DNA from: Yinghuangia soli
GTDB lineage: Bacteria > Actinomycetota > Actinomycetes > Streptomycetales > Streptomycetaceae
DNA length: 64,000 nt
Direction of reading: 5' to 3'
NCBI RefSeq assembly: GCF_021502675.1
Contig: NZ_JAKFHA010000044.1
Span: forward strand, 1 to 64,000
Below the pieces are notes generated by a model, which was not told the origin of the DNA, did no database searches, and was given only the letters and a program-made list of their open reading frames with translations. Of the stretch, positions 10,740 through 40,500 are shown in pieces. A program made the translations under genes and the position numbers. Position 1 is the stretch's first letter, and every line of letters begins with the position of its first letter.

Positions 10740-11210
10740 TCAGTCTGCCGGGGTGGGGGAGGCGGCGGGGGCGGCGGGGCGGCCTGCTGCTTGGGCTAGG
10801 CGGGTGCGCAGGTGGGTCAGGCGGGCGATTTCGGCGTCGAGGGCGGCGAGTCGGCGGTCGACTGCCTCCGCGGCAGGGGATGCGGGGGATGAGGGGGGTG
10901 TGGGGGAGGGCGTGCCGGTGTGCGGGGGTGCTGCCGGGGGCTCCGCCAGGTCCTCGACCACGGCGGTGCAGTGTGGCGGTGCGCCGGCCGCGAGGAGGTC
11001 GAGGCGGGAGGCGAAGCCGCGGACGTCCTCGACGGTGAGTCCGTGCTGCAGCAGTTCGCGGACGGCGCGGATCCTGGCGACGTCGCCCGGTCCGTACACG
11101 CGCTGGCCGGACGGGCTGCGCGGCGGTGCGGGCAGCAGGCCGCGCTGCTCATAGAACCGCAGGGCCCTGGGTGTCGTCCCGGCGGCCGCAGCCGCGTCCC
11201 CGATCCTCAT
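10740..11210 (-). CDS. MerR family transcriptional regulator
   Basis: A 156-residue protein. The N-terminal winged helix is MRIGDAAAAAGTTPRALRFY, EQRGLLPAPPRSPSGQRVY and GDVARIRAVRELLQHGL. A central cysteine (PPHC) lies before a Pro/Ser-rich linker and a terminal coiled-coil (VDRRLAALDAEIARLTHLRT) for dimerisation. It lies 21 bases downstream of the oxidoreductase gene in the same direction, so it probably autoregulates through the palindrome at 12434-12456. Confidence 0.88.
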   Translation of the reverse strand: MRIGDAAAAAGTTPRALRFYEQRGLLPAPPRSPSGQRVYGPGDVARIRAVRELLQHGLTVEDVRGFASRLDLLAAGAPPHCTAVVEDLAEPPAAPPHTGTPSPTPPSSPASPAAEAVDRRLAALDAEIARLTHLRTRLAQAAGRPAAPAASPTPAD

Positions 11211-11231
11211 GCACGCCTCCCGCTCGTACGC

Positions 11232-12278
11232 CTACAACGCCACCACGACTGTGCCGAAGTGGCGTCCCTCGATCAGTTCCTGCAACGCCGCGGGGGCGCG
11301 GTCGATGCCCGGGAGCGCGACGTAGGGGAATCGGATCCGCCCCTCGCGCAGCCAGCCGCCGAAGCGCTCCTCCCATTCGGCGGGCACGTCCGGATGGTCG
11401 GCGCCGCGGTAGCCGCGTACCGACACGCCCTGGACGACGAGCCGGTAGCTGTCGACCTCGGCGGGCGCACTGCCGCCCGCGCGATCCCCGGACAGTTGCC
11501 CGGCCAGCGCACCGACCAGCGCGATCCGCGCGCCCGGCCGTGCGGCGGCCACCGTGGCGGTCAACTGCTCGCCGCCGACGGTGTCCACGACCACGTCCAC
11601 GCCTTCGGGCGCGGCCTTGGCCAGCAGGTCCCCGAACGGCGCGGACCCACGGACGACGACGGCGTCGAACCCGAACTCCGCCCGCAGCCGCTCCGCCTTG
11701 TCTGCCGACCCGGTGCTGCCGATGACGCGGCCCGCACCCGACAACCGGGCGATCTGCCCCGCAAGCACCCCGGTCGCGCCCGCCGCACCGCTGACGAACA
11801 CCGTCTCGCCGTCCCGGACGGGCGCGAGGCGGGTGAGCGCGCCGTACGCCGCCGACCCGCTGGACAGGTGCGCCACCGGGTCGGGGAGCGTCGCGGGAGT
11901 GCAGTGGTCGGCGGGCAGCCGAGCGAACTCCCGCCAGCCGTCGAGGTGGACGACCACCGCCCCGGGCCGGAGCCCCGCGCCTTCGCCGGCCGCGACCACC
12001 TCGCCCACCGCAGGACCGAAGAGCGTGTCGCCGGCCCGCAGCGGCGGCAGGGGCACACCGTCCGTCTCGTCGCCCATCAGCGTCCGCAGCCCTGGGAAGA
12101 CGAGGAAGTGGCGGTTCCGGACGACGACTTCACCAGGTCCTGGGGCCGTGACAGGAACCTCGGCGATGTGCAGATCGGCGGCGGTCGGCAGCCCCCGCGG
12201 CTGCCCGGCGAGCCGGACCTCGCGCGAGATGCGGGGGAGGGGGTGGGGGTGCGCAGGGGAGACGGACGTTGCGGTCAT
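11232..12278 (-). CDS. zinc-independent NADP-dependent MDR oxidoreductase
   Basis: A 348-residue medium-chain reductase of the leukotriene B4 dehydrogenase/CurA type. The GroES-like N-terminus has TAPGPGEVVVRNRHF. The nucleotide-binding motif is VFVSGAAGATGVLAGQIARL. There are no structural zinc cysteines. The ATG at 12278 has an AAGGAG ribosome site. It probably reduces alpha,beta-unsaturated ketones or aldehydes with NADPH. It is followed by a MerR regulator in the same operon; a MerR-type palindrome lies upstream, consistent with induction by reactive electrophiles. Confidence 0.88.
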   Translation of the reverse strand: MTATSVSPAHPHPLPRISREVRLAGQPRGLPTAADLHIAEVPVTAPGPGEVVVRNRHFLVFPGLRTLMGDETDGVPLPPLRAGDTLFGPAVGEVVAAGEGAGLRPGAVVVHLDGWREFARLPADHCTPATLPDPVAHLSSGSAAYGALTRLAPVRDGETVFVSGAAGATGVLAGQIARLSGAGRVIGSTGSADKAERLRAEFGFDAVVVRGSAPFGDLLAKAAPEGVDVVVDTVGGEQLTATVAAARPGARIALVGALAGQLSGDRAGGSAPAEVDSYRLVVQGVSVRGYRGADHPDVPAEWEERFGGWLREGRIRFPYVALPGIDRAPAALQELIEGRHFGTVVVAL

Positions 12279-24147: not shown

Positions 24148-26787
<2,640 letters not shown>

Positions 26788-26803
26788 AATACCTTCCAGG
26801 TGG
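26788..26803. promoter_or_regulatory. catabolic-island operator, copy 1
   Basis: AATACCTTCCAGGTGG with a palindromic core, ACCT-TCC-AGGT, immediately before the GH3 start codon and in the divergent GH3/TetR spacer. It matches the copy at 30718-30733 at 14 of 16 bases. Confidence 0.6.
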
Positions 26804-26848
26804 CATGTTTTCACTGTCGAGTGCGGGATCTCAAGGAGCAGGGCGGCA

Positions 26849-27472
26849 ATGGCGGAGCAGAAGGGGCGTCGCGGGTCGTACGCCAGCGGGCTCGCGAGGC
26901 GCGAGGAGATCGTCGTGGCCGCGCTCGAACTGTTCGCGGCGCGCACGTACGACGCTGTGTCGCTGCGCGAGGTGGCCGCGAAAGTGGGGATCACCCACAG
27001 CGGCGTGCGGCACCACTTCGCCTCGAAGGAGGAACTGCTCACCGCGGTCCTGCACTACAACGACCAGGTGTCCCTCACCCCCGATCCGGACCACGAGATC
27101 AGCGGTGTCGACTGGATCCGGGCGAGCGTTGACCTCGTCGCGTTCAACGCCCAAAAGCCTTTGGTGATCCGGCTGTTTGCGACGCTCTCGGTGCAGGCGA
27201 CCGATCCGGAGCACCCCGCGCACAACTACTTCGTCAAGCGCTACCGGGTCGCCCGGAGCCTGGTCGCCCGGGAGCTGGAGTACGCGCGGACGCAGGGCGA
27301 CATCCGGGCGGACACCGACCCGGAAGCGGCCGCGGAGTCGCTGCTGGCGACCATGGACGGGCTCCAGATCCAGTGGCTGCTGGATCCGGAGCACGTCGAC
27401 ATGGTCAGCGCCTACCGGCAGTTCGTGGACCGCTTCCTCACCTATCTGACGTCGACCGGCGCGGCGGACTGA
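26849..27472 (+). CDS. TetR family regulator of the glycoside island
   Basis: A 207-residue repressor: REEIVVAALELFAARTYDAV, SLREVAAKVGITHSGVRHHF and ASKEELLTAVLHYND, then a helical ligand domain. An AAGGAG-type site lies upstream of the ATG. It is divergent from GH3 and convergent, with a one-base gap, with the GH78 gene. The shared operator at two promoters makes it the best candidate for controlling glycosidases and transporter, with the glycoside or aglycone as inducer. Confidence 0.88.
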   Translation: MAEQKGRRGSYASGLARREEIVVAALELFAARTYDAVSLREVAAKVGITHSGVRHHFASKEELLTAVLHYNDQVSLTPDPDHEISGVDWIRASVDLVAFNAQKPLVIRLFATLSVQATDPEHPAHNYFVKRYRVARSLVARELEYARTQGDIRADTDPEAAAESLLATMDGLQIQWLLDPEHVDMVSAYRQFVDRFLTYLTSTGAAD

Positions 27473-27473
27473 C

Positions 27474-29861
27474 CTACCGCACACCGTCCGATGCGACGGA
27501 CCGGCCGCCGGCGAGCGGGATGCTGTGCCGTCCCGCGGCGTATTCTCCGCCGCCGTGCCGGAACGGGACGGGGCTGTCGACGTCCAGGCGCGTCCCGGTC
27601 ACCGCGACCGCGATCAGCCCGGCCGGGCACGGAACTTCGCCGGACGCCGAGTCCAGCGCGCCGAGCGCCGGCTCGATGCGCGCCACGCCGAACCCCGGCT
27701 CGGCAGGCTCGACGCCCAGCACCCGGACCACCAGGTCGCGGGTCGGGGTCGAGGACCAGCCGTGGCTGACCGTGCCGCCGTACCAGGTCTCGGACCACGA
27801 GGTCGCGCAGCGCTCCAGTGCGGCCGTCCAGTCCAGGCACAGCCCCGCGACGAGGTCGGCGCGCCCGGCGGCGGCGAGTGCGTCGTGCACGACGTACCGG
27901 AAGAACGGCTGGGCCCGGACGACCTGCTTGTCGGTGTCCCACCAGGGCTCCGGGTGGCCGATGCGCAAGTAGGCCCCGCCGACCGGGAGATCGCCGCCAG
28001 GGACCGCAGGGGCGTCGGGGCTGCTGAACGCCGCATCGACGTGCGCCGCCGTGTCGGTGAGGACCTCGACCAGGCGCGCCCACCGCTCCCGCGGCGCGAG
28101 CCCCCCGACGATCGCCGCCGCCTGTGCATGCTGCGAGGCCGCCGTCCCGCGGCCCCCCTCGGTGAGGGAGTCCGCGTACCGGCCCCGCTCGGCGTCCCAC
28201 AGGAGTTCGAACCCGGCGGCGAGCTGCCGGTGCATGCCGCGCGCCCACGCGGCCCGGCCCTCGTCGCCGAGCCATGCGGCCATTTCGGCGAACTCCTGCA
28301 GCGCCCGGCCCCACAGACCGCACAATGCCGCGCAGACGCCGTCGGTGGTGACCGACGCCCAGTCGATCAGCACCCAGCCGAACACGTCCTCGAGCAGGCC
28401 GTCGGCATTGCGGAACGGCAAGAACCAGCGCAGGACGCCCTCGACCGCGGGCAGCAGCCCGCCGATCTCGTCGCGGTCGCCGACGTACCGGTACGAGTTC
28501 CACACCGCGTGCACCCAGTGCAGCGACCAGTCCGGGATGACCGTGAAGTCGGCGTACTCGACGTCGCCGGCCACGGCCATCGGGAGCATGCCGTCGCTGC
28601 GCGGCGACGCGGCCATCCGCGGGTACCAGCGGGCCAGCCGCCAGTCGGAGTTCGTCGCGAAGTCCACCATCTGGTGGACCACCGCGTCGCCGACCCAGGC
28701 GCGCTGCTCGCGGGTCGGGCAGTCGATGTACGCATCGGCGGAGCACAGCGTGACAGTGCGGCGGCCGATCTCCCAGATGCGTTCCAGGACCGGGTCCGAG
28801 CACCGGAAAGCGGCCCCGCCCGTCACCGGGTAGGTGCGGGTGCGAACGCCGATGCCGTGCACGGTCACCCCGTCGCCGGCCTCGACCAGCGCGCCGTGCA
28901 GGCCGTACAGGTCGAGGGATTCGGCGGTCCGCCGGGTGCCGTCGAGGGTGACGGTGAAGCAGGCGTCGTGCTCGCCCGGCGCCGGCTCGCCGCCGGCGAG
29001 GAACTCCGCGACGCGGACGGTCACGGACGCCCCGGGCGGCCCGGAGGCGTCCACGACCAGCGTGCCGGACTCGATCCGGTCGGCGACGTACGCCCCGGCC
29101 GCCGTCCGCCGCAGCGCCACCTCGACGGGCGCCGCCTGCGCGATGGGACGGGCGCCGAGCGGACCGCCCGGGAAACTGGGCGGCTCGGCGCGCCCGGGCT
29201 CGCCGGTGGTCATCGCCCGCCGCGCGGTCGCGGCCGGCCAGCCGGCATCCCCGCACGAGTCGCCGGCCTGGCCGCCCGCCCCGGTGGAGGCGAGGGCCGT
29301 GCACCAGGCCGCCGGCAGCACCCGGCAGTCGACGTGCTCCTCGCCGCGCCCGGACAACCGGTCCACGACGTTGTCCCCCCACCCCGGCAGGACGCGGGCC
29401 TGCCAGCTTTCGTCGGAGACGAACCAGCCGTCCGCAAGGCGTGCTTCGAGGACGAACGCGCCCTCGTGCAGGTCGTTCGCGAGCGGCGACGGCGGCATCC
29501 ACCACGGCTTCGGGCCGTCGTAGCGCCAGGCCAGCACCGCGACCGCATTGGCGCCGGGGCGCAGGTACGGCGCCAAGTCGACGTCGTCGTACGGCTGCTG
29601 CCGGGGGTTGGCGCGTACCGGGCCGCGGGACACCTCGGTGCCGTTGACCCACAGGGCGTACCGCGACAGCGCGGCCATGCGGGCCGGCACCCGGTCGGGT
29701 ACCGACGCCAGGTCCAGGGTGCGCCGGAGCGCGACGACCTCGCGCCCGCCGCCGGGCGCCCGTTCCGCGGCCCAGATCCACCGCCCGCGCCACCGTCCCG
29801 GCGGGAAGGCGTGCGATCCGGGTGCCGGTATCGGTGCCCGGTCTGCGAGGGAGTTCGTCAT
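27474..29861 (-). CDS. GH78-type alpha-L-rhamnosidase
   Basis: A 795-residue protein. The N-terminal beta-sandwich (RWIWAAERAPGG; YALWVNGTEVSRGPVR) is followed by an (alpha/alpha)6 barrel with the family signature YIDCPTREQRAWVGDA and VIPDWSLHWVHAVW, and a late SETWYGG/SHGWSSTPT block. GH78 enzymes invert and release terminal L-rhamnose. There is no signal peptide, so action is cytoplasmic. Its ATG overlaps the hydrolase TGA (ATGA), so the two are translationally coupled. Some GH78-like proteins act on other sugars, so the exact sugar remains inferred. Confidence 0.82.
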   Translation of the reverse strand: MTNSLADRAPIPAPGSHAFPPGRWRGRWIWAAERAPGGGREVVALRRTLDLASVPDRVPARMAALSRYALWVNGTEVSRGPVRANPRQQPYDDVDLAPYLRPGANAVAVLAWRYDGPKPWWMPPSPLANDLHEGAFVLEARLADGWFVSDESWQARVLPGWGDNVVDRLSGRGEEHVDCRVLPAAWCTALASTGAGGQAGDSCGDAGWPAATARRAMTTGEPGRAEPPSFPGGPLGARPIAQAAPVEVALRRTAAGAYVADRIESGTLVVDASGPPGASVTVRVAEFLAGGEPAPGEHDACFTVTLDGTRRTAESLDLYGLHGALVEAGDGVTVHGIGVRTRTYPVTGGAAFRCSDPVLERIWEIGRRTVTLCSADAYIDCPTREQRAWVGDAVVHQMVDFATNSDWRLARWYPRMAASPRSDGMLPMAVAGDVEYADFTVIPDWSLHWVHAVWNSYRYVGDRDEIGGLLPAVEGVLRWFLPFRNADGLLEDVFGWVLIDWASVTTDGVCAALCGLWGRALQEFAEMAAWLGDEGRAAWARGMHRQLAAGFELLWDAERGRYADSLTEGGRGTAASQHAQAAAIVGGLAPRERWARLVEVLTDTAAHVDAAFSSPDAPAVPGGDLPVGGAYLRIGHPEPWWDTDKQVVRAQPFFRYVVHDALAAAGRADLVAGLCLDWTAALERCATSWSETWYGGTVSHGWSSTPTRDLVVRVLGVEPAEPGFGVARIEPALGALDSASGEVPCPAGLIAVAVTGTRLDVDSPVPFRHGGGEYAAGRHSIPLAGGRSVASDGVR

Positions 29862-30700
29862 CGGGGGCCCTCCAGTCGTTCGAAGTGGGCCCGGACCGCG
29901 GCCAGCCACGCTTGCGGCTGCTCGGTCTGCGGGCTGTGCTTGGCGCCGTCGACGACCACGAGGCGGGCGCCGGGTATGCCGTCGACCAGTTGGCCGGCGC
30001 CCCGGCGCAGTGCCTTGTCGCCCGCGCCGACGAGCACCGTGGTCGGGCAGGCGATGCCGCCGAGCCGCGCGGTGAGCGGCGGGTAGCTGCGCAGCGCCCG
30101 GGCGAACGCGGCGAAGGCCTCGGGATCGGTGGCGAGGAACGCCGCGGCCTGCCGGTCGCGCTGCTCCGCGGTGAGGGCGCCGCGCGCGCCGCCGGCATCG
30201 GCGGACCGGGGCTTGGGGAGCAGCTTCGCGAGCGTGCCGACCACCCCCATGCCCCGGCGGCGGACCAGCATTTCAAGCGGGCGCATGAGCAGCGACAGCG
30301 GTCCGCCCGAGGGTTCCGGCGCGGTGTCCATCAGCACGAGCGAGCGCACCCGGTCCGGGTGCGCCAGTGCGTACCGCTGCGCGACCACGCCGCCCATGGA
30401 ATGGCCGAGCAGGTCGACCGGCCCGAGGCCGAGCGTGTCCAGAAACGCGCCCAGGTCCGCTTCCAGGGCGTCGAACGAATAGGCCTCGGCGCGCCCGGGT
30501 TTGGCGCTGCCGCCGTGTCCGCGGTGGTCGTACGCCAACACCCGCCGGTCGGCCGCGAGTTCCGGCAGCACGCCGGACCAGTCCGCGGTGCTGCCGACGA
30601 ATCCGTGCAAGAGGACGAGGGGTTCGGTGCCCGGTGCGGGGCTGCCGTGGTCCTCGTAGTTCAGGGCGGTGTCACCCGCGGTGAGCTGGGCGTTCGTCAT
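29858..30700 (-). CDS. alpha/beta hydrolase
   Basis: A 280-residue alpha/beta hydrolase: LVLLHGFVGSTADWSGVLPE, YDHRGHGGSAKPG, the nucleophile elbow LLGHSMGGVVAQ, and a late GAKHSPQTEQP histidine region. The start is ATG 30700; ATG 30721 in frame would put the operator at the very start. It is coupled by ATGA to the rhamnosidase and may remove an acyl group from, or open a lactone in, the same glycoside. Confidence 0.84.
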   Translation of the reverse strand: MTNAQLTAGDTALNYEDHGSPAPGTEPLVLLHGFVGSTADWSGVLPELAADRRVLAYDHRGHGGSAKPGRAEAYSFDALEADLGAFLDTLGLGPVDLLGHSMGGVVAQRYALAHPDRVRSLVLMDTAPEPSGGPLSLLMRPLEMLVRRRGMGVVGTLAKLLPKPRSADAGGARGALTAEQRDRQAAAFLATDPEAFAAFARALRSYPPLTARLGGIACPTTVLVGAGDKALRRGAGQLVDGIPGARLVVVDGAKHSPQTEQPQAWLAAVRAHFERLEGPR

Positions 30701-30717
30701 GCCGTCATGAAACCCTT

Positions 30718-30733
30718 CCATCTGGCAGGTATT
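30718..30733. promoter_or_regulatory. catabolic-island operator, copy 2
   Basis: On the minus strand AATACCTGCCAGATGG, in the 111-base divergent spacer between the hydrolase-rhamnosidase operon and the transporter operon. It could therefore control both, together with the GH3 promoter copy. Confidence 0.58.
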
Positions 30734-30811
30734 GGATGTTAGCATCGCCGCGCTTCGCTGTGACGCCTATTTCTCCGCGAAGGCAAATTCCAGGCACCGC
30801 CCAGGAAAGGG

Positions 30812-32163: not shown

Positions 32164-34458
32164 ATGAACGACCGCACGACCCGCGAGGACGGACTCGCGG
32201 ACCTCGCGGGTGCGTTGCTGCACAGCGAGGCGAATTCCGAGGCGGGATCCGAGGCGAGGGCCGGAGTGAAGGCCCGTGCGAAGGCCGGAACGAGAGCCGC
32301 GGCGCGATCCGGAGGGCCCAAGGCCGATCCCGGGGAGCCGGCCGGCGGTCTCCTCGGGGACGACAGCGAACCCGCGACGCTGCGCGCCGGCCTGCGCCGG
32401 GCCGGACCGGCGACGTTCGCCGTGCTCTTCCTGCTGACCTCGCTGGACGAACTCGAGGGCGCGGCCCTCGGGGTGCTCGCGCCCGACATCCGCGACAGCT
32501 TCGGCATCAGCGACGGGATGATCGTGTTCCTGTCCGTCGCCGCCGGGGCGTTCATCGTGATCGGCGCGGTGCCGATGGGCTGGGTCGCCGACCGGTTCCG
32601 GCGCGGCCCGATCGTCGGCGCGGCGAGCGCGTTCTTCGCCGCGATGGTGTTCGCGTCCGGGTTCGCGGTCAACGCCTTCATGTTCTTCTGGACCCGCTTC
32701 GGGGCCGGCATCGCCAAGTCCAATCAGGGGCCCGTGCAGGGGTCGCTGCTCGCGGACACGTACCCCATCGGCATCCGCGGCCGGATCGGTGCGGCCATCG
32801 GCGTCGGCGGGCGGCTGGTCGGGGTGCTCAGCCCCCTGATCGTGGGCGGCATCGCGGCCGCGTTCGGCGGCGACGACGGCTGGCGCTGGGCGTACTTCCT
32901 GCTCGGCCTCCCGGTCGCGGTGGTCGCCGCCGCGGCGTTCTTCCTGCCCGAACCGGTACGCGGGCGCTGGGAGAAGGCCGCGGTCGTCGGAGAAGTCGTG
33001 GTCGACGAGAAGCCCCCGCCCATCTCCGTCGAGGCGGCGTTCGCGCGGCTCGGACGCATCCGGACCCTGAAGACCGTGGTCCTCGCCTTCGCCGCGATGG
33101 GATTCGGCCTCTTCACCGCTCCGGTCCTCGGAAACCTCTACCTGGAACAGCACTTCGACCTCGGCGTGTTCGGCCGCGGCGTGGTCGGCACGGTCGGCGG
33201 AGCCGCCGGTCTGCTCGTCCTGCCGTTCGTCGGCCGGTACTACGACCGGCAGTTCCGGCACGACCCGTCCCGCGCGCTGCGGCTCATCGGCCTGCTCACC
33301 CTGCCGTCCGCGTTCTTCCTGCCCTTCCAGTACTACGCGCCGAACGTGGAACTCTTCACGCTGTTCAGCATCGGGCCGGTGGTCCTGCTGTCCGCGGCGT
33401 TCGCCATGATCGGGCCCCTGCTCCAGACGATCGTCCCGTACCGGCTGCGCGGCATGGGCTCCGCGATGGGCTCGGTGTACGTGTTCTTCATCGGGGCGAC
33501 CGGCGGTGCGCTGATCGCGTTCCCGCTGATCAACAGTTTCGGTATCCGGGCTGCCGTGCTCACCACGATGATCCCCTCGACGATCGTCGGCGGCCTGCTC
33601 ATCCTGCGCAGCTCGTGGCTCGTCAAGCGCGATCTGGCGAACGTGGCCGAGGAGTTGCGCGAGGAGTACGAGGAGCACCAGCGGCGTACGGCGGCCCCGG
33701 ATGACGTCCCGGTCCTCCAGGTCAGCGGCGCGGACTTCTCCTACGGACAGGTCCAGGTGCTGTTCGGCGTCGGATTCGAGGTCCGCCGGGGCGAAGTCCT
33801 CGCGCTGCTCGGCACCAACGGCGCCGGCAAGAGCACCGTGCTGAAGGTGGTCTCGGGCCTGGCCACCCCCGAGCGCGGGGTGGTCCGGTTGAACGGCCGC
33901 ACCATCACCTACGTCTCGCCCGAACAGCGGGTCCGGCTCGGCGTCGTGTCGCTCACCGGCGGTGCCGGGGTATTCCCGAGCATGTCGGTCCGGGAGAACC
34001 TGGAACTGGGCGCCTTCGTCCACCGCGGCGACCCGGCCGACGTCGCGCGCCGCATCGAACGCGTCCTGGAGATCTTCCCCCAGCTGCGCGACAGGCAGCG
34101 CGAGCGGGCCTCGACCCTCTCCGGCGGGCAGCAGCAAGTCCTCGCCCTCGCGCTGGCCCTGCTGCACGACCCCGAGGTCCTCCTGATCGACGAACTGTCC
34201 CTGGGCCTGGCCCCCGGCGTCGTCGCCGAACTCCTCGCCGTCGTCCGGCGGCTCCGCGAATCCGGGCTCGCGATCGTCATCGTCGAGCAGTCCCTCAACG
34301 TCGCCATGTCCATCGCGGACCGCGCGGTCTACCTGGAGAAGGGGCGGGTCCGCTTCACCGGCTCCGCCGCCGACCTCGCGGCGGGCGACATCGCCCGGGC
34401 GGTCTTCTTCCGCACCGAGGAGGACGCGCTCGGCGCGCGCGGGGGAGAGGCGACATGA
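32164..34458 (+). CDS. MFS permease fused to a LivF-like ABC ATPase
   Basis: A 764-residue fusion. Residues 1-75 are a low-complexity cytoplasmic leader. About 75-495 form a 12-helix major facilitator domain (DELEGAALGVLAPDIRDSFG, MGWVADRFRRGP, FGAGIAKSNQGPVQGSLLAD). From about 520 there is an ATPase with Walker A GTNGAGKST (550-558), signature LSGGQQQ (652-658) and Walker B VLLIDELSLGLAP. The ATPase resembles LivF. A GGAAGGG site precedes the ATG. The stop overlaps the next gene (ATGA). In a standard branched-chain importer LivF is a free subunit; here it is tethered to an unrelated permease. Confidence 0.88.
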   Translation: MNDRTTREDGLADLAGALLHSEANSEAGSEARAGVKARAKAGTRAAARSGGPKADPGEPAGGLLGDDSEPATLRAGLRRAGPATFAVLFLLTSLDELEGAALGVLAPDIRDSFGISDGMIVFLSVAAGAFIVIGAVPMGWVADRFRRGPIVGAASAFFAAMVFASGFAVNAFMFFWTRFGAGIAKSNQGPVQGSLLADTYPIGIRGRIGAAIGVGGRLVGVLSPLIVGGIAAAFGGDDGWRWAYFLLGLPVAVVAAAAFFLPEPVRGRWEKAAVVGEVVVDEKPPPISVEAAFARLGRIRTLKTVVLAFAAMGFGLFTAPVLGNLYLEQHFDLGVFGRGVVGTVGGAAGLLVLPFVGRYYDRQFRHDPSRALRLIGLLTLPSAFFLPFQYYAPNVELFTLFSIGPVVLLSAAFAMIGPLLQTIVPYRLRGMGSAMGSVYVFFIGATGGALIAFPLINSFGIRAAVLTTMIPSTIVGGLLILRSSWLVKRDLANVAEELREEYEEHQRRTAAPDDVPVLQVSGADFSYGQVQVLFGVGFEVRRGEVLALLGTNGAGKSTVLKVVSGLATPERGVVRLNGRTITYVSPEQRVRLGVVSLTGGAGVFPSMSVRENLELGAFVHRGDPADVARRIERVLEIFPQLRDRQRERASTLSGGQQQVLALALALLHDPEVLLIDELSLGLAPGVVAELLAVVRRLRESGLAIVIVEQSLNVAMSIADRAVYLEKGRVRFTGSAADLAAGDIARAVFFRTEEDALGARGGEAT

Positions 34459-37286
34459 ACAGCCAGGTCCTCTTCGACGGCCTCGTCAACGGCCTCGCCA
34501 TCGGCCTGATCGCCCAAGGCATCGTCCTGGTCTACCGGTCCACCCGCGTCATCAACTTCGCGGTCGGCAACCTCGGCGTCCTCGCGGCCGCCCTGCTGCC
34601 GCTCGTCTGCCTCAACTACGGCTGGCCGATCTGGGCGGCTCTGCCGGCCGCGCTCGTGGTCGGCACGCTGACCGGCACGCTGGTCGAACTGTCGGTGATC
34701 CGCCGCCTGTTCACGGCACCCCGGGTCACGGTCCTGATCGCGACGATCGGCGTTTCCCAGGCCGCCGTCGCCGTCGTGGCCGCCCTGCCCGACGTCCGCA
34801 ACGCGCTCAGCGCGCAGTACCCGGTCCCGGTCCAGGGGACCTGGTCGGTCGGCGGCGTCACCGTCACCGGGGCGCAGGCCTCCGTCCTGGTCGTCGTCCC
34901 GCTCGTGGCCGGCGCCCTCTCGCTGCTGCTCAACCGCACCACCGTGGGACGCGCGGTCACCGGCTCGGCGGACAACATGCCGCTGGCCCGGACCCTCGGC
35001 ATCAACCCGAAGCTGATCTCCACCCTGGTGTGGACCATCGCCGGACTGCTCTCCAGCCTCGCGATGATCCTCGTGTCCGGGCTGTCCGGGGGCGTCACCG
35101 CGGTCACCGACCTTGGCCCCGGCACCATGATCCGGGCGCTCGCCGCGGCGGTCGTCGCGGGCATGGTCTCGTTCCGCTGGTCGATGCTCGCAGGCGTCGC
35201 GATCGGCGTGCTCCAGGCGTACGTCCGCTTCGAGTACGTCACCGAGCCGGGCCTGGTCGACCTGCTGCTGCTCGGCGCCGTACTGGCCGCCGTATGGGCG
35301 TACGCCCGCCGCGACGACCGGGCCCGGTCCGAGACCGTGGCGTTCGGCCCGCGCGTCCGTGCGGTGCCGGAACACCTGCGGCGCATCTGGTGGGTGCGGC
35401 ATCTGGGCCTGCTCGCCGCGCTGCCGGTGGCCGCCGCCGCGGTGCTCCTCCCGCTGGTCGTCACGCAGTCGTCGCGGCACCTGCTGTACGCCACCGTCCT
35501 CGCGTACGCGATCTGCGCGTGCTCACTGACCGTGCTCACCGGCTGGTCCGGCCAACTCTCCCTCGGCCAGATGGGGTTCGCCGGACTCGGCGCGCTGACC
35601 GCGGCACTCCTGACGCGCGGCCTCACCATCGGGCTCGGCGGGGACACCCGGCTGATCGTCGAACCCCTGCCGTTCCCGGTCGCCATCCTGGCGGCCGCCG
35701 CGGGCACCGCGCTGCTCGCCGCGGTCATCGGGTTCGCCGCACTGCGGGTCGAAGGGATGCTGCTGGCGATCAGCACGTTCGCGCTCGGCACCGCCGCGGT
35801 CGGCTTCCTGTACCGGATGGACATCTTCGGCGCGGGCACCGGCGACTCGGTGGCGTTCCCCCGCGGCACGCTGTTCGGCCTGGACCTGTCTCGCGAACGC
35901 ACCTACTACTACGTGCTCCTGGCGGTTTTGGCCCTCGTGGTCGCGCTGCTGTCCCGGCTGCGGCGCACCGGCCCCGGGCGCCGCATGATCGCGGTGCGCG
36001 ACAACCCCGACGCGGCGGCCGCCGCCACCGTGCGGCCCGTCCGCACCAAGCTCGTCGCGTTCGCACTGTCCGGAGCCCTGGCCGGGCTCGGCGGCGGACT
36101 GCTCGCCGGCGCCGTCCAGTCCGTGCCGGTGACCGAGCGGTTCTTCCAGGTCGGCGACTCGCTGATGCTGGTCGCCATCGTGGTGATCGGCGGACTGGGC
36201 TCGGTATGGGGGCCGGTCCTCGGCTCGGTGTGGGTGATCGGGCTGCCGGCCTTCTTCCCCGGCAACGAACTGGTGCCGCTGTTCGCCTCCAGCCTCGGGC
36301 TGCTGGTCCTGCTGATGTACTTCCCCGGCGGGCTCGTGCAGATCGGGTACGCCCTGCGCGGCACCGTGCTGGACCTTGCCGAGCGGCGCCTGGGCGCGGC
36401 AGGGGCGGACGTCGCGGCAGCGCGCGTGCCCAGGCCGGCGCGGGCGCCTGCCACGGCCCGCGCCGAACGCCGGGAGCGTCCTGAACCCGCGTCGGGAAAG
36501 CCCGTGTTGGAGGTCCGCGACGTCACCGTGCGGTTCGGCGGGAACACCGCCGTCGACGGGGTGGGCATGCAGGTCCAGGCCGACGAGATCGTCGGCCTGA
36601 TCGGCACCAACGGCGCGGGCAAGTCGACGCTGCTCGGCGCGATCGGCGGCTTCGTCCCCGCGTCCGGGACCGTGGAACTGCTCGGACACGACGTCTCCGG
36701 CTGGTCGCCTGCCCGGCGAGCGGCCCTCGGCCTCGGGCGCACCTTCCAGGCCGCCCGGCTGTTCCCCGAACTCACCGTCCGCGAGACGGTCCTCGTCGCG
36801 CTCGAGGCACGCGGCCGGTCCGGACTGGCGGCCACGGCCGCCTTCCTGCCCGGCGCCGTGCGCGCCGAACGCCGGCGGCGCGCCGAAGCCGCCGACCTGA
36901 TCGACCTGGTCGGCCTCGGCCCGTACGCGGACCAGGCGGTGGCCGGCCTGTCGACCGGCACCCGGCGCATCGTCGAACTCGCCAACCTGCTCGCACTCGA
37001 CGCGCGGGTGCTGTGCCTCGACGAGCCCACCGCCGGCGTCGCGCAGCGCGAAACCGAGGCCCTCGGCCCGCTGCTGCTCCGGCTGCGGCGCGAACTCGGC
37101 GCGGCCATGGTGGTGATCGAGCACGACATGCCGTTCCTGATGTCCTTCAGCGACCGGCTCTACTGCCTCGAAGCCGGGCGCGTCATCGCCGAGGGAACAC
37201 CCGAACAGGTGCGCAGCGACCCGGCGGTCATCGCCGGCTACCTGGGCACGGACGACCGCGCCATCGACCGGTCGGGCGTGGTCTGA
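34455..37286 (+). CDS. LivH-LivM-LivG triple fusion of a branched-chain-type ABC importer
   Basis: A 943-residue protein that joins both permeases and one ATPase. Residues 1-290 are LivH-like (GLAIGLIAQGIVLVYRSTRV; ITGLINPK-type segment TLGINPKLISTLVW). About 300-630 are LivM-like (GWSGQLSLGQMGFAGLGA; IAVRDNPDAAAA). An Ala/Arg-rich linker follows, then from about 690 LivG-like ATPase with Walker A GTNGAGKST (717-725), signature LSTGTRR in place of LSGGQ, and VLCLDEPTAGVA. It starts inside the preceding stop codon. With the binding protein and the MFS-LivF fusion it makes a complete importer in three genes. Confidence 0.9.
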   Translation: MNSQVLFDGLVNGLAIGLIAQGIVLVYRSTRVINFAVGNLGVLAAALLPLVCLNYGWPIWAALPAALVVGTLTGTLVELSVIRRLFTAPRVTVLIATIGVSQAAVAVVAALPDVRNALSAQYPVPVQGTWSVGGVTVTGAQASVLVVVPLVAGALSLLLNRTTVGRAVTGSADNMPLARTLGINPKLISTLVWTIAGLLSSLAMILVSGLSGGVTAVTDLGPGTMIRALAAAVVAGMVSFRWSMLAGVAIGVLQAYVRFEYVTEPGLVDLLLLGAVLAAVWAYARRDDRARSETVAFGPRVRAVPEHLRRIWWVRHLGLLAALPVAAAAVLLPLVVTQSSRHLLYATVLAYAICACSLTVLTGWSGQLSLGQMGFAGLGALTAALLTRGLTIGLGGDTRLIVEPLPFPVAILAAAAGTALLAAVIGFAALRVEGMLLAISTFALGTAAVGFLYRMDIFGAGTGDSVAFPRGTLFGLDLSRERTYYYVLLAVLALVVALLSRLRRTGPGRRMIAVRDNPDAAAAATVRPVRTKLVAFALSGALAGLGGGLLAGAVQSVPVTERFFQVGDSLMLVAIVVIGGLGSVWGPVLGSVWVIGLPAFFPGNELVPLFASSLGLLVLLMYFPGGLVQIGYALRGTVLDLAERRLGAAGADVAAARVPRPARAPATARAERRERPEPASGKPVLEVRDVTVRFGGNTAVDGVGMQVQADEIVGLIGTNGAGKSTLLGAIGGFVPASGTVELLGHDVSGWSPARRAALGLGRTFQAARLFPELTVRETVLVALEARGRSGLAATAAFLPGAVRAERRRRAEAADLIDLVGLGPYADQAVAGLSTGTRRIVELANLLALDARVLCLDEPTAGVAQRETEALGPLLLRLRRELGAAMVVIEHDMPFLMSFSDRLYCLEAGRVIAEGTPEQVRSDPAVIAGYLGTDDRAIDRSGVV

Positions 37287-37399: not shown

Positions 37400-38341
37400 A
37401 TGCCACTGGACCCACCGATCCGCGCCCTCGTCGACGCACTTGCCGCCGCCGGGGCGGCCGAACGCGAAGCCGCGGACCTCGACGAGCGACGGCGGATGTC
37501 CGCCGCCACGATGGTCCTTGCCTCCACCGGCCGCGGCCCGGGCGTCGTCGCCACCGAGCACCGCATCCCCGTGCACGGCGGCGAGATCGCCGTCCGCGTG
37601 CTGCGCCCAGCCGAACTGGATTCCCCGGCACCGGCGTTCTACTTCCTGCACGGCGGCGGCTGGGCGCTGGGCAACCTCGACACCGGCGAGGTCGAGTGCG
37701 GGCCGATGGCGGCCATGGTGCCCTGCGTCGTGGTGTCCGCGGACTACCGGCTTGCGCCGGAACACCCGTTCCCCACGCCGCTGGAGGACTGCATCGCGGG
37801 CTACCGCTGGCTGCACGAGAACGCCGCCGAGCTGGGCATCGACCCGGCCAGGGTCGCGGTCGGCGGCGCCAGCGCGGGCGGGAACCTGGCCGCCGCGCTG
37901 TGCCTCGCGGCACGCGATCGGGGCCTGCCTGCCCCGTGCCTCCAACTCCTCGACGTCCCCGCGCTCGATCTGACCCCGCTGCCGGTCGCCGAAGACGAGC
38001 CGTCCGACGGCCTCACCGCGAGCGCCGTCAACGAGTACGCCGCCTGGTACCTGGGCGAGCACGGCGACCCGAAGGACCCGCTGGCCTCGCCGCTGCACGC
38101 CCCCGACCTGAGCGGCCTGCCGCCCGTCGTCCTCACCGTCGCCGAACTGGACGTGCTGTGCGACCAGGGGGAGCGGTACCTGGCCCGGTTGCACGAAGCG
38201 GGCGTCCCCGGCGCTGCGTTCCGGGTGTCCGCGCACGGGCACGGGACGTGGATCATCCCGATCACGGCGACGTTCACCCTCGTCCGCGAGGTGCGCGCCG
38301 CAGCGCTGCGGCACGCGTTCGCGGGGTCGCTCGCGCCCTGA
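37400..38341 (+). CDS. alpha/beta hydrolase of the HSL (lipase-like) family
   Basis: A 313-residue cytoplasmic esterase. The oxyanion motif is FLHGGGWALG, the nucleophile VGGASAGGNLAAAL, the acid likely VAELDVLCDQ and the histidine SAHGHGTW. A GGAGG site precedes the ATG. It lies 113 bases after the transporter fusion in the same direction, so it probably belongs to the island and may hydrolyse ester groups on the imported compound. Confidence 0.86.
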   Translation: MPLDPPIRALVDALAAAGAAEREAADLDERRRMSAATMVLASTGRGPGVVATEHRIPVHGGEIAVRVLRPAELDSPAPAFYFLHGGGWALGNLDTGEVECGPMAAMVPCVVVSADYRLAPEHPFPTPLEDCIAGYRWLHENAAELGIDPARVAVGGASAGGNLAAALCLAARDRGLPAPCLQLLDVPALDLTPLPVAEDEPSDGLTASAVNEYAAWYLGEHGDPKDPLASPLHAPDLSGLPPVVLTVAELDVLCDQGERYLARLHEAGVPGAAFRVSAHGHGTWIIPITATFTLVREVRAAALRHAFAGSLAP

Positions 38342-38415
38342 CCTGCCGCCCGCGTCCGGGCCGCACCCCCGTGGCGGCCCGGACGCGCGTACCACCCCGG
38401 ACCCGCATCCCGGAA

Positions 38416-38434
38416 CCGGAACTCTCTATTCCGG
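38416..38434. promoter_or_regulatory. inverted repeat upstream of the CocE-type hydrolase
   Basis: CCGGAA (38416-38421) and TTCCGG (38429-38434) with a seven-base spacer, about 65 bases before the start codon of the secreted hydrolase. It could be an operator. Its half-site resembles the TTCCG halves at 19205-21419, but the spacing differs. Confidence 0.35.
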
Positions 38435-38499
38435 ATGTGCCGGCAAGACGCACCACCCAGCCCTTGTCCCGCCCTGTCTCGCGACCCTGGGAGGTCACG

Positions 38500-40500
38500 G
38501 TGCTCCACCAGTTGCTCCACCCCGCCCGTACCGGACGAACCGGAAGACGGCGCAGCCCGTTCGGCCGCCTGCGCAGGCGGATCGGCGCCCTCCTGGCCGG
38601 CGTCCTCGTCGCGACCACCGCCCTCGCCGGGTCGGGCCCGGCCGCCACCGCGTCGCCCCCGGCCGCCAGCCCGGTGGCCTACGGGATCAGCGCGCAGAAG
38701 GGCGTGGCCGTCACCATGGCCGACGGCACCGTGCTGCGCGCGGACATCTACACACCCGCGCTCCCCGGCACCACCACCGCGGCGCCCGGGCCGTTCCCGG
38801 TGCTGCTGAACCAGACCCCGTACGGGCGCGGCCTCAAGCAGGCCGAACTGGCGTACTTCGTCCAGCGCGGCTACATCGCGGTCGCCGTCGACGTCCGCGG
38901 CACCGGTTCGTCCACCGGATCCTGGTCGCCGTTCGCGCCGATCGAGGCGCAGGACGGCGCGGCGCTGGTCGACTGGGCGGCGGCCCTCCCGTCCGCGGAC
39001 GGCGGCGTCGGCCTGTACGGCGACTCGTACACCGGCATCAACCAGATCACCACCGCGGGTGCGGTCGGCCCCGGCTCGCCGCTCAAGGCCATCTTCCCGG
39101 TCGTCGCCGGCAACGACCTGTACCGCGAGCTGGTGACGATGGGCGGGCTGCCGAACGCCGAGTTCATGCCGTTCTGGCTGCTCTACACCGGGCTCGGCAA
39201 CCTGACCAACCCGATCACCGACGCGCTCAACGGCGGCTCGCCGCAGAACATCCTCGACACGCTCGCGCTCGAACTGCAGCACATCAACGGAATCGCCACG
39301 GCCAACCTGCCCATCCTCAACGGCCTGATGACCGGCGGCGAGCACTCCTACGACGGCGCCTTCTGGCAGGCCCGCCGCCCCGCCGACCAGCTCGCGAACG
39401 TGGTCGCCAACGGCGTACCGGCCTTCCTCGTCGGCGGCTGGTTCGACCTGTTCCAGCGCGGTGCCCTGATGAACTACTCGGGCCTGCAGAACGCGTGGGC
39501 CGGCCGTCCGGTCGGCGCCCCCATGGTGGCGGGCCAGCAGGTCACCGACCGCTACCAGCTCCTGATGGGCCCGTGGTACCACGACCCGCGCCAGGACCCC
39601 GCCTTCGACCTGTCGGCTCTGCAACTGCGCTGGTACGACCGCTGGCTGAAGGGCATGGACACCGGCATCACCGGCACCGCCAACCCGCTGCACGTCAAGG
39701 AACTGGGCTCGAACCGCTGGCTCGACACCCGGAACTACCCGTTCACCGAGGCGACCGCGTCGCGCCTCTACTTCGACAAGGGCCGCACCGGCACGGCCGG
39801 CTCCTCGGCGAACGACGGCCTGCTGACCCCGACCCCGCCCACCTCCGGCGGCTCCGAGTTCATCACCTGGACGGCGTCGAACAACCCGTGCACACGCTCG
39901 TCCACGCAGTGGTTCGGCGGCTTCCTCCGCAACCCGGCGTGCGACGACTCGAACCTCGCCCGGGAGAGCGGACCCAACGCACTCGTCTACACGACCGACC
40001 CGGTGACCGAGACCACGGTCCTCGCCGGCCCGATCGGCGCCACCCTGTACGCGTCCGCCAACACCAACGAGACCCAGTTCGTCGCGACCATCACCGACGT
40101 CGGCCCCGACGGCTCCTCCGTCCCGCTCAGCACCGGCGCCCTGGTCGGCACCCACCGCGCGGTCGACCCCGCGCGCAGCTGGTACGCCCCGGACGGGTCG
40201 CTCCTGATGCCGTACCACCCCTCCACCCAGGCGTCCGCGACCCCGGTCCCCGCCTTCCAGACCACCCGCTACGACCTGGAGGTCTTCCCGACCTTCGCGT
40301 CCCTCGCCCCGGGCCACCGCCTCCGCGTCGTCATCACCACGGCGGACACGCCCCACCTGTCGGCCACCACACCCCAGACGTTCAAGCTCCTCGCCGGCGT
40401 CTACCAGCTCAAGTCGGGGCCGGGCACCCCGTCCTCGATCACCGTCCCCCTGGCCCCGGCCGCCAATTTCGGCACTCCCTGCACCAGCGTCTGCCCGTGA
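38500..40500 (+). CDS. secreted CocE/NonD family hydrolase
   Basis: A 666-residue X-Pro dipeptidyl-peptidase/cocaine-esterase type serine hydrolase. GTG 38500 follows GGGAGG. The signal peptide (about residues 1-50: basic stretch, LLAGVLVATTALAGSG, ATASP) implies export. Motifs: LNQTPYGRGLKQ, VAVDVRGTGSSTGSW, nucleophile GLYGDSYTG, then GGWFDLF and the histidine region LMGPWYHDP. The jelly-roll C-terminal domain is visible as RYDLEVFPTFASLAPGHRLR. It probably cleaves esters or N-terminal prolyl peptides outside the cell. Confidence 0.88.
   Translation: MLHQLLHPARTGRTGRRRSPFGRLRRRIGALLAGVLVATTALAGSGPAATASPPAASPVAYGISAQKGVAVTMADGTVLRADIYTPALPGTTTAAPGPFPVLLNQTPYGRGLKQAELAYFVQRGYIAVAVDVRGTGSSTGSWSPFAPIEAQDGAALVDWAAALPSADGGVGLYGDSYTGINQITTAGAVGPGSPLKAIFPVVAGNDLYRELVTMGGLPNAEFMPFWLLYTGLGNLTNPITDALNGGSPQNILDTLALELQHINGIATANLPILNGLMTGGEHSYDGAFWQARRPADQLANVVANGVPAFLVGGWFDLFQRGALMNYSGLQNAWAGRPVGAPMVAGQQVTDRYQLLMGPWYHDPRQDPAFDLSALQLRWYDRWLKGMDTGITGTANPLHVKELGSNRWLDTRNYPFTEATASRLYFDKGRTGTAGSSANDGLLTPTPPTSGGSEFITWTASNNPCTRSSTQWFGGFLRNPACDDSNLARESGPNALVYTTDPVTETTVLAGPIGATLYASANTNETQFVATITDVGPDGSSVPLSTGALVGTHRAVDPARSWYAPDGSLLMPYHPSTQASATPVPAFQTTRYDLEVFPTFASLAPGHRLRVVITTADTPHLSATTPQTFKLLAGVYQLKSGPGTPSSITVPLAPAANFGTPCTSVCP

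Follow-up and report, generated by a model that had tools for sequence, protein, structure and literature searches.

Textbooks present MFS carriers and ABC importers as distinct classes of transporter, each sufficient in itself and drawing on a different source of energy. The operon described here, which lies in a 64,000-nucleotide stretch of the Yinghuangia soli genome (the window; contig 39 of a 9.7-Mb genome), joins the two in a single protein, and so raises a question: what is an MFS domain doing on the ATPase of a Liv-type importer? An earlier note on this DNA had proposed that one importer has been rebuilt as two large fusion proteins, consisting of (i) a LivF-like ATPase fused to a 12-helix MFS domain, and (ii) LivH, LivM and LivG joined in a chain of 943 residues. 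It had also reported that the two genes overlap by ATGA, and that the LivG signature reads LSTGTRR instead of LSGGQ. These observations stand: both open reading frames are uninterrupted, the overlap can be read directly in the DNA, and LSTGTRR occupies residues 832–838 of the 943-residue chain. The features of the operon are collected in Table 1.

Table 1. Coordinates (in the window), strand and supporting evidence for features of the operon.
Feature	Position	Strand	Evidence
Liv-type substrate-binding lipoprotein, 439 aa	30812..32131	+	profile of relatives, AF2 model alignment
MFS-LivF fusion protein, 764 aa	32164..34458	+	uninterrupted ORF, Pfam, NCBIfam, AF2 model, structure alignment
12-helix Spinster-like MFS domain, residues 82-483	32407..33612	+	AF2 helices, VIA-align, profile match
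Helical spacer, MFS to ATPase, residues 487-510	33622..33693	+	helix in AF2 model
LivF-type ATPase domain, residues 516-749	33709..34410	+	Pfam, motifs, 1ji0 alignment Z 30.9
ATGA gene overlap, 4 bases	34455..34458	+	read in DNA
LivH-LivM-LivG fusion protein, 943 aa	34455..37286	+	uninterrupted ORF, Pfam
LivH-type permease domain, ~residues 1-290	34455..35324	+	BPD_transp_2; UrtB match at 5-276 (NCBIfam)
LivM-type permease domain, ~residues 312-640	35388..36374	+	BPD_transp_2 at 347-594
LivG-type ATPase domain, ~residues 682-935, with BCA_ABC_TP_C tail	36498..37259	+	Pfam, NCBIfam
Clade-specific LivG signature LSTGTRR	36948..36968	+	LSTG[TSM]RR in 43/44 related LivG domains

Three adjacent genes on the + strand encode, in order, a binding protein, MFS-LivF and LivH-LivM-LivG; the binding-protein gene is an addition to the earlier account. 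Pfam places MFS_1 at residues 88–441 (E 1.3e-32) and ABC_tran at 535–677 (E 1.6e-28) of the 764-residue chain, and finds two stretches of BPD_transp_2, ABC_tran and BCA_ABC_TP_C in the 943-residue chain. The best NCBIfam models for the first ATPase are UrtE and LivF, and the nearest for the second is LivG, all under their curated cut-offs. With two BPD_transp_2 domains, a LivG-type ATPase (carrying BCA_ABC_TP_C), a LivF-type ATPase and a Liv-type binding protein, the operon encodes a full set of Liv/HAAT importer components and, in addition, one MFS carrier.

The fusion could have been produced by an assembly error or a frameshift, but nothing was found in favour of this. Recurrence of the junction rules it out and leaves the probability of an artefact practically nil. 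Among 48 matches at E 1e-20 in the window genome, three are MFS-LivF genes (100, 61 and 60% identity), and the remaining 45 match in the ATPase part only. A LivH-LivM-LivG chain and a binding protein adjoin each of the two further copies, as they do in an Embleya NBC_00888 plasmid record and in a Catenulispora genome. Within the taxonomic order of the window, 2 of 147 genomes (own genome counted, six genera sampled) are positive at E 1e-90. A sample of the phylum yielded at least 28 matches to the MFS domain at E 1e-30 in 15 of 296 genomes (own included, five candidates scored per genome); no free-standing close relative of the MFS domain was found among them. In the own genome, the next MFS protein scores no more than 41.5 bits, down from 828. 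Scanning contigs with the MFS domain gave 17 loci, from Embleya, Yinghuangia, Streptomyces, Catenulispora, Frankia and metagenome assemblies; for genomes of other phyla, the coverage was this same scan, which used a strict pattern.

Beside the window, 46 entries found via the MFS domain were read (L039, L041–L060 and L089–L113). One Catenulispora contig appears twice among them, as L043 and L054, giving 45 distinct loci besides the window, and 46 with it. The MFS domain is N-terminally joined to LivF in all 46, with the junction intact throughout. Together with the three copies in the own genome, these 45 other loci, drawn from many assemblies, exclude chance or sequencing error. The loci are all actinobacterial as far as they could be placed. 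An acidobacterial origin, given in the record title of L052, was rejected: the phylum assigned to its genome has members that also turned up in the search of the window's own phylum. Spread by plasmids has little support, as the MFS domain matched a single Embleya record (in two places) among 72,556 plasmid records. The operon also occurs on a 3.8-kb metagenome contig titled Bifidobacterium breve (L049), perhaps a stray one.

The loci show two main arrangements. In 31 of 46, MFS-LivF is accompanied by LivH-LivM-LivG as a single chain (in one of these, L110, LivG is split over two frames), while in 12 the proteins are LivH-LivM and MFS-LivF-LivG. The other three comprise a locus with a separate LivG (L111), one with no LivG in 12 kb (L112), and L049, whose contig ends inside LivH. 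Hence, LivG changes chain, and the MFS-LivF union is the constant.

Since the loci had been collected via the MFS domain, a reverse search was run with the LivH-LivM-LivG chain. It returned at least 20 places in 12 of 292 genomes at E 1e-110, a lower bound because three candidates were scored per genome. MFS-LivF adjoins 17 of the 20 chains found. In the first of the other three (L124), a plain LivF is encoded on the opposite strand at a distance of ~5 kb, and the 12 kb read contain no MFS domain; the L124 LivG carries the LSTGTRR of the clade, and the genome holds three MFS-LivF genes elsewhere. In the second (L130), LivF (10785–11483, - strand) lies behind a membrane region of ~400 residues that the MFS profile fails to recognise, and which looks like either an MFS domain that has decayed or another kind of membrane domain at that position. 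No LivF was found on the third contig (L131, 7.8 kb). The LivH-LivM-LivG match contains one TGA in L130, and likewise in L108. The expectation that MFS-LivF and the LivH-LivM-LivG fusion are constantly associated thus holds in part: most of the chains have MFS-LivF as a neighbour, but in the 12 loci of the second arrangement LivG sits behind MFS-LivF instead, and the L124 chain has only a plain LivF in 12 kb.

How does the operon compare with known systems? It shares with the HAAT/Liv importers (LivJ/K-H-M-G-F, UrtABCDE) a Liv-type binding protein, two BPD_transp_2 domains, LivG and LivF ATPases and BCA_ABC_TP_C, and differs from them in the MFS domain at the N-terminus of LivF and in the joining of H, M and G into one chain, or of G behind F. 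Fusions of the permease LivM to the ATPase LivG are a common kind in actinobacteria; they too place permease and LivG in one chain, but there LivF bears no MFS domain. Several of the other LivG matches in the own genome lie in stop-to-stop frames of 596–770 aa, which would fit LivM-LivG fusions. The MFS-LivF fusion is conserved in some actinobacteria. No description of one was found in the open PMC literature by title or abstract start, and passages of PMC7997004 contain nothing on such a fusion. Its description may also help annotation, as an MFS-LivF gene would easily be named after one half only.

The MFS domain most closely resembles the Spinster (Spns) lipid transporters. Searched against the PDB, its profile matches HnSpns best (6e8j, E 1.1e-10), followed by EfpA, EmrB and SPNS2. 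An AF2 model of the MFS-LivF chain, of moderate confidence (pLDDT 71.8, pTM 0.70; residues 168–187 below 50), contains, by our own grouping of its helices, twelve segments long enough to cross the membrane within residues 82–483, and a further helix that leads to the ATPase. Structure alignment with VIA-align places SPNS2 (8ex5, Z 35.1, rmsd 3.2 over 390 residues) and Spns1 (9boi, Z 35.0) at the top, but SV2A (9pc9, Z 34.0) and OxlT (8hpk, Z 33.7) score only slightly lower. For the ATPase part, the alignment is with 1ji0 from Thermotoga maritima.

Passages of PMC9440201 describe, for HnSpns, Glu129 as the main protonation switch and Asp41 as the second, Arg122 as the RxxxG residue, and Asp87-Arg91-Asp142 as a gating charge relay. 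By alignment, these correspond in the window protein to K185 (Glu129), E98 (Asp41), R178 (Arg122) and D143-R147-D198 (the relay), although pLDDT is below 50 around R178 and K185 in the model, and residue equivalence there is drawn from the sequence alignment. The window protein has motif A and the equivalents of the whole relay and of R122. Across the 46 sequences, D143 is kept in 41, R147 in 46, D198 in 45 and R178 in 40, and an acid stands at position 98 in 38; R241, R338, R429 and D490 are invariant. The residues counted in this way are gating and switch residues, rather than a mapped cavity. Position 185 (Glu129) holds a base (Lys or Arg) in 34 of 46 proteins and an acid in two, making the usual proton coupling doubtful. 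Judged by these alignments, the gate is mostly kept, while the proton switch is mostly replaced by a base. As the Glu129 position mostly lacks its acid, we class the domain as Spinster-like rather than as a member of Spinster proper. Its fusion to an ATPase is a further difference; the best profile and top fold matches, and the mostly kept motif A, R122 and D142 equivalents, are what the two have in common.

The MFS domain and the ATPase are separated by a spacer of nearly fixed length. Measured from Asp490, which directly follows the last MFS helix, Walker A is 58–60 residues away in 44 of 46 proteins, the outliers having 49 (L106) and 55 (L112); the sequence of the spacer varies widely despite its near-constant length. 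The LivM-LivG joint spans 76–100 residues in the chains measured (29 of 31), and the LivF-LivG joint 60–95 (10 of 12 measured), with loose motif anchors that may add scatter to both ranges. The near-uniform length, together with the helix seen in the model, argues that the MFS domain occupies a defined position on the ATPase.

Two further explanations draw on this spacer and on the altered switch. Firstly, LivF may power the MFS domain, or control its gating, by binding and hydrolysing ATP, in place of the proton switch that has been lost. The basic residue in 34 of 46 proteins, within a gate network that is mostly kept, and the almost fixed spacer length would fit. However, no precedent was found in the open PMC literature (titles and abstract starts), LivF must also serve LivH/LivM, and two proteins have shorter spacers; we regard such ATP driving as distinctly improbable. 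Were it true, one ATP cycle of the rigidly attached ATPase would work two unrelated machines at once, a Liv-type importer and a Spinster-like carrier. Secondly, the MFS domain may be a sensor (transceptor) that binds a solute and controls how active its partner ATPase is. The near-constant spacer would suit this too, as would gating residues that are largely kept while the proton-switch position has changed, but other explanations fit these features equally well, and a sensor seems to us improbable.

Evolutionary comparisons bear on whether the MFS domain still transports. Its dN/dS is 0.084–0.294 in eight pairs, within the range of LivF, LivH, LivM and LivG in the same pairs; the estimates come from simple Nei-Gojobori counting on G+C-rich DNA, so only the relative values count. 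The MFS domain is under purifying selection. Patristic distances of the MFS domain track those of the four importer domains LivF, LivH, LivM and LivG (r 0.88–0.93), compared with 0.89–0.94 for the importer parts among themselves (46 entries, window left out and the duplicate L043/L054 included), a correlation that joint inheritance of the operon block alone could give. The motif A Asp is lost in a subclade of five (L095, L102, L103, L108 and L110), four of which (not L095) have also lost the TM4 Arg; this Arg is missing in L091 and L093 as well. MFS transport may therefore be lost in places, and the carrier of that subclade may be inactive.

These losses lend themselves to another explanation: that the MFS domain is a non-transporting anchor or scaffold, which keeps LivF beside the permease and fixes the stoichiometry. 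A Glu129 position that is non-acidic in 44 of 46 proteins, the loss of the motif A Asp and TM4 Arg in the subclade, and the retention of a membrane region without a recognisable MFS in L130 all agree with an anchor, and a near-constant spacer fits a docking part. Most members nevertheless keep motif A, the R91–D142 relay and the TM4 Arg, which is unexpected of an anchor, and L124 makes do with a plain LivF, though its genome encodes three MFS-LivF proteins elsewhere. Overall, we consider an anchor unlikely.

The ATP sites of the two chains were compared by their motifs. The window LivF has Walker A GTNGAGKST, signature LSGGQQQ, IDE, and VEQ at the position of the H-loop His; the window LivG has LSTGTRR and EHD. 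In related loci (L043 and L054 both counted, window left out), a pattern search finds LSGG in 38 of 46 LivF domains and catches another stretch or nothing in the rest (L041 reads MSGGQQQ), while VEQ occurs at the H-loop His position in 46 of 46. LSTG[TSM]RR occurs in 43 of 44 LivG domains, and EHD in all 37 listed of the 44. Six of ten other LivG proteins of the own genome read LSYGDQR, LSYGERK, LSHGQRQ, LTYGEQR, LAYGQQR and LSLGQQK; in the remaining four, no LSGGQ was found by the pattern, which would catch it. A LivG without LSGGQ is thus ordinary here, and LSTG.RR marks the clade. That LSTGTRR denotes a dead or damaged ATPase was rejected, given these six non-LSGGQ proteins and the LSGGQQQ of the window LivF. 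From the motifs and general knowledge of ABC proteins, the one canonical site would pair LivG, which supplies Walker motifs and His, with LivF, which supplies LSGGQ, and would perform most of the ATP hydrolysis; the other site, with Gln for His in LivF and LSTGTRR in LivG, would be degenerate.

To the reading that we prefer—a complete Liv-type ABC importer with a working Spinster-like MFS carrier held at a fixed distance on LivF—we assign an even chance. Domain content, conservation, purifying selection, retained gating residues and the constancy of the spacer speak for it; the mostly basic Glu129 position, the motif loss in the subclade, L124 with its plain LivF, L130 without a recognisable MFS and the moderate confidence of the AF2 model speak against it. 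Under this reading, the LivH-LivM-LivG and MFS-LivF chains would assemble 1:1, and the binding protein would deliver its solute to LivH/LivM, as in the usual cycle of the Liv family. Each complex would hold one MFS carrier, docked via LivF through the near-constant spacer. From its selection and gating residues, the MFS domain probably transports, and it would then co-operate with the importer; one guess among several is that it moves a related or product solute, in parallel with the imported one or in exchange for it. A conserved MFS and ABC pair in an apparently fixed complex offers a direct test of whether a secondary carrier can be coupled mechanically to ATP hydrolysis, or whether uptake and export of related solutes are placed next to each other.

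Which solutes these may be was approached through the binding proteins and the neighbouring genes. Alone, the window binding protein has no Pfam or NCBIfam match at E 0.01. A profile of 14 such proteins matches the Liv-type binding protein 4gnr in the PDB (E 6.5e-6), and an AF2 model (pLDDT 83.4) aligns to Liv-type binding proteins at Z ~28. Binders of fatty acids, aromatic acids and amino acids all lie within ~3 Z units, so the binding protein allows no choice of substrate; literature on a Thermomonospora curvata fatty-acid binding protein yielded nothing useful. The window-type binding-protein profile was matched in 33 of 53 related loci, the misses including L048, L049, L052, L089, L110 and all 12 loci of the MFS-LivF-LivG arrangement. 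Eight of those 12 (L096, L097, L098, L101, L105, L106, L109 and L113), and also L111, have a neighbouring protein of 567–615 aa. All nine stay below the Pfam cut-offs, but their profile matches that of the window-type binding proteins with an hhalign probability of 97.7 (E 1.4e-12); they resemble binding proteins of large size and may form a group not yet described.

Among the neighbours of related loci (137 of 178 called proteins scanned) are binding proteins, hydrolases, amidohydrolases, CoA-transferases and others; we could see nothing that unites the families listed (25 of 57 and 25 of 64). In the window itself, GH3-type, alpha-L-rhamnosidase-type and alpha/beta-hydrolase genes lie just upstream on the - strand (24148–30745), and an Abhydrolase_3 gene and an S15/PepX-type gene lie downstream (37400–40500). 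This suggests a cluster for glycoside or ester breakdown around the transporter. The GH3, rhamnosidase-type and hydrolase neighbours hint at phenolic or triterpenoid glycosides, the substrates put forward in the earlier note, as candidates. A TetR gene is also present among the window neighbours.
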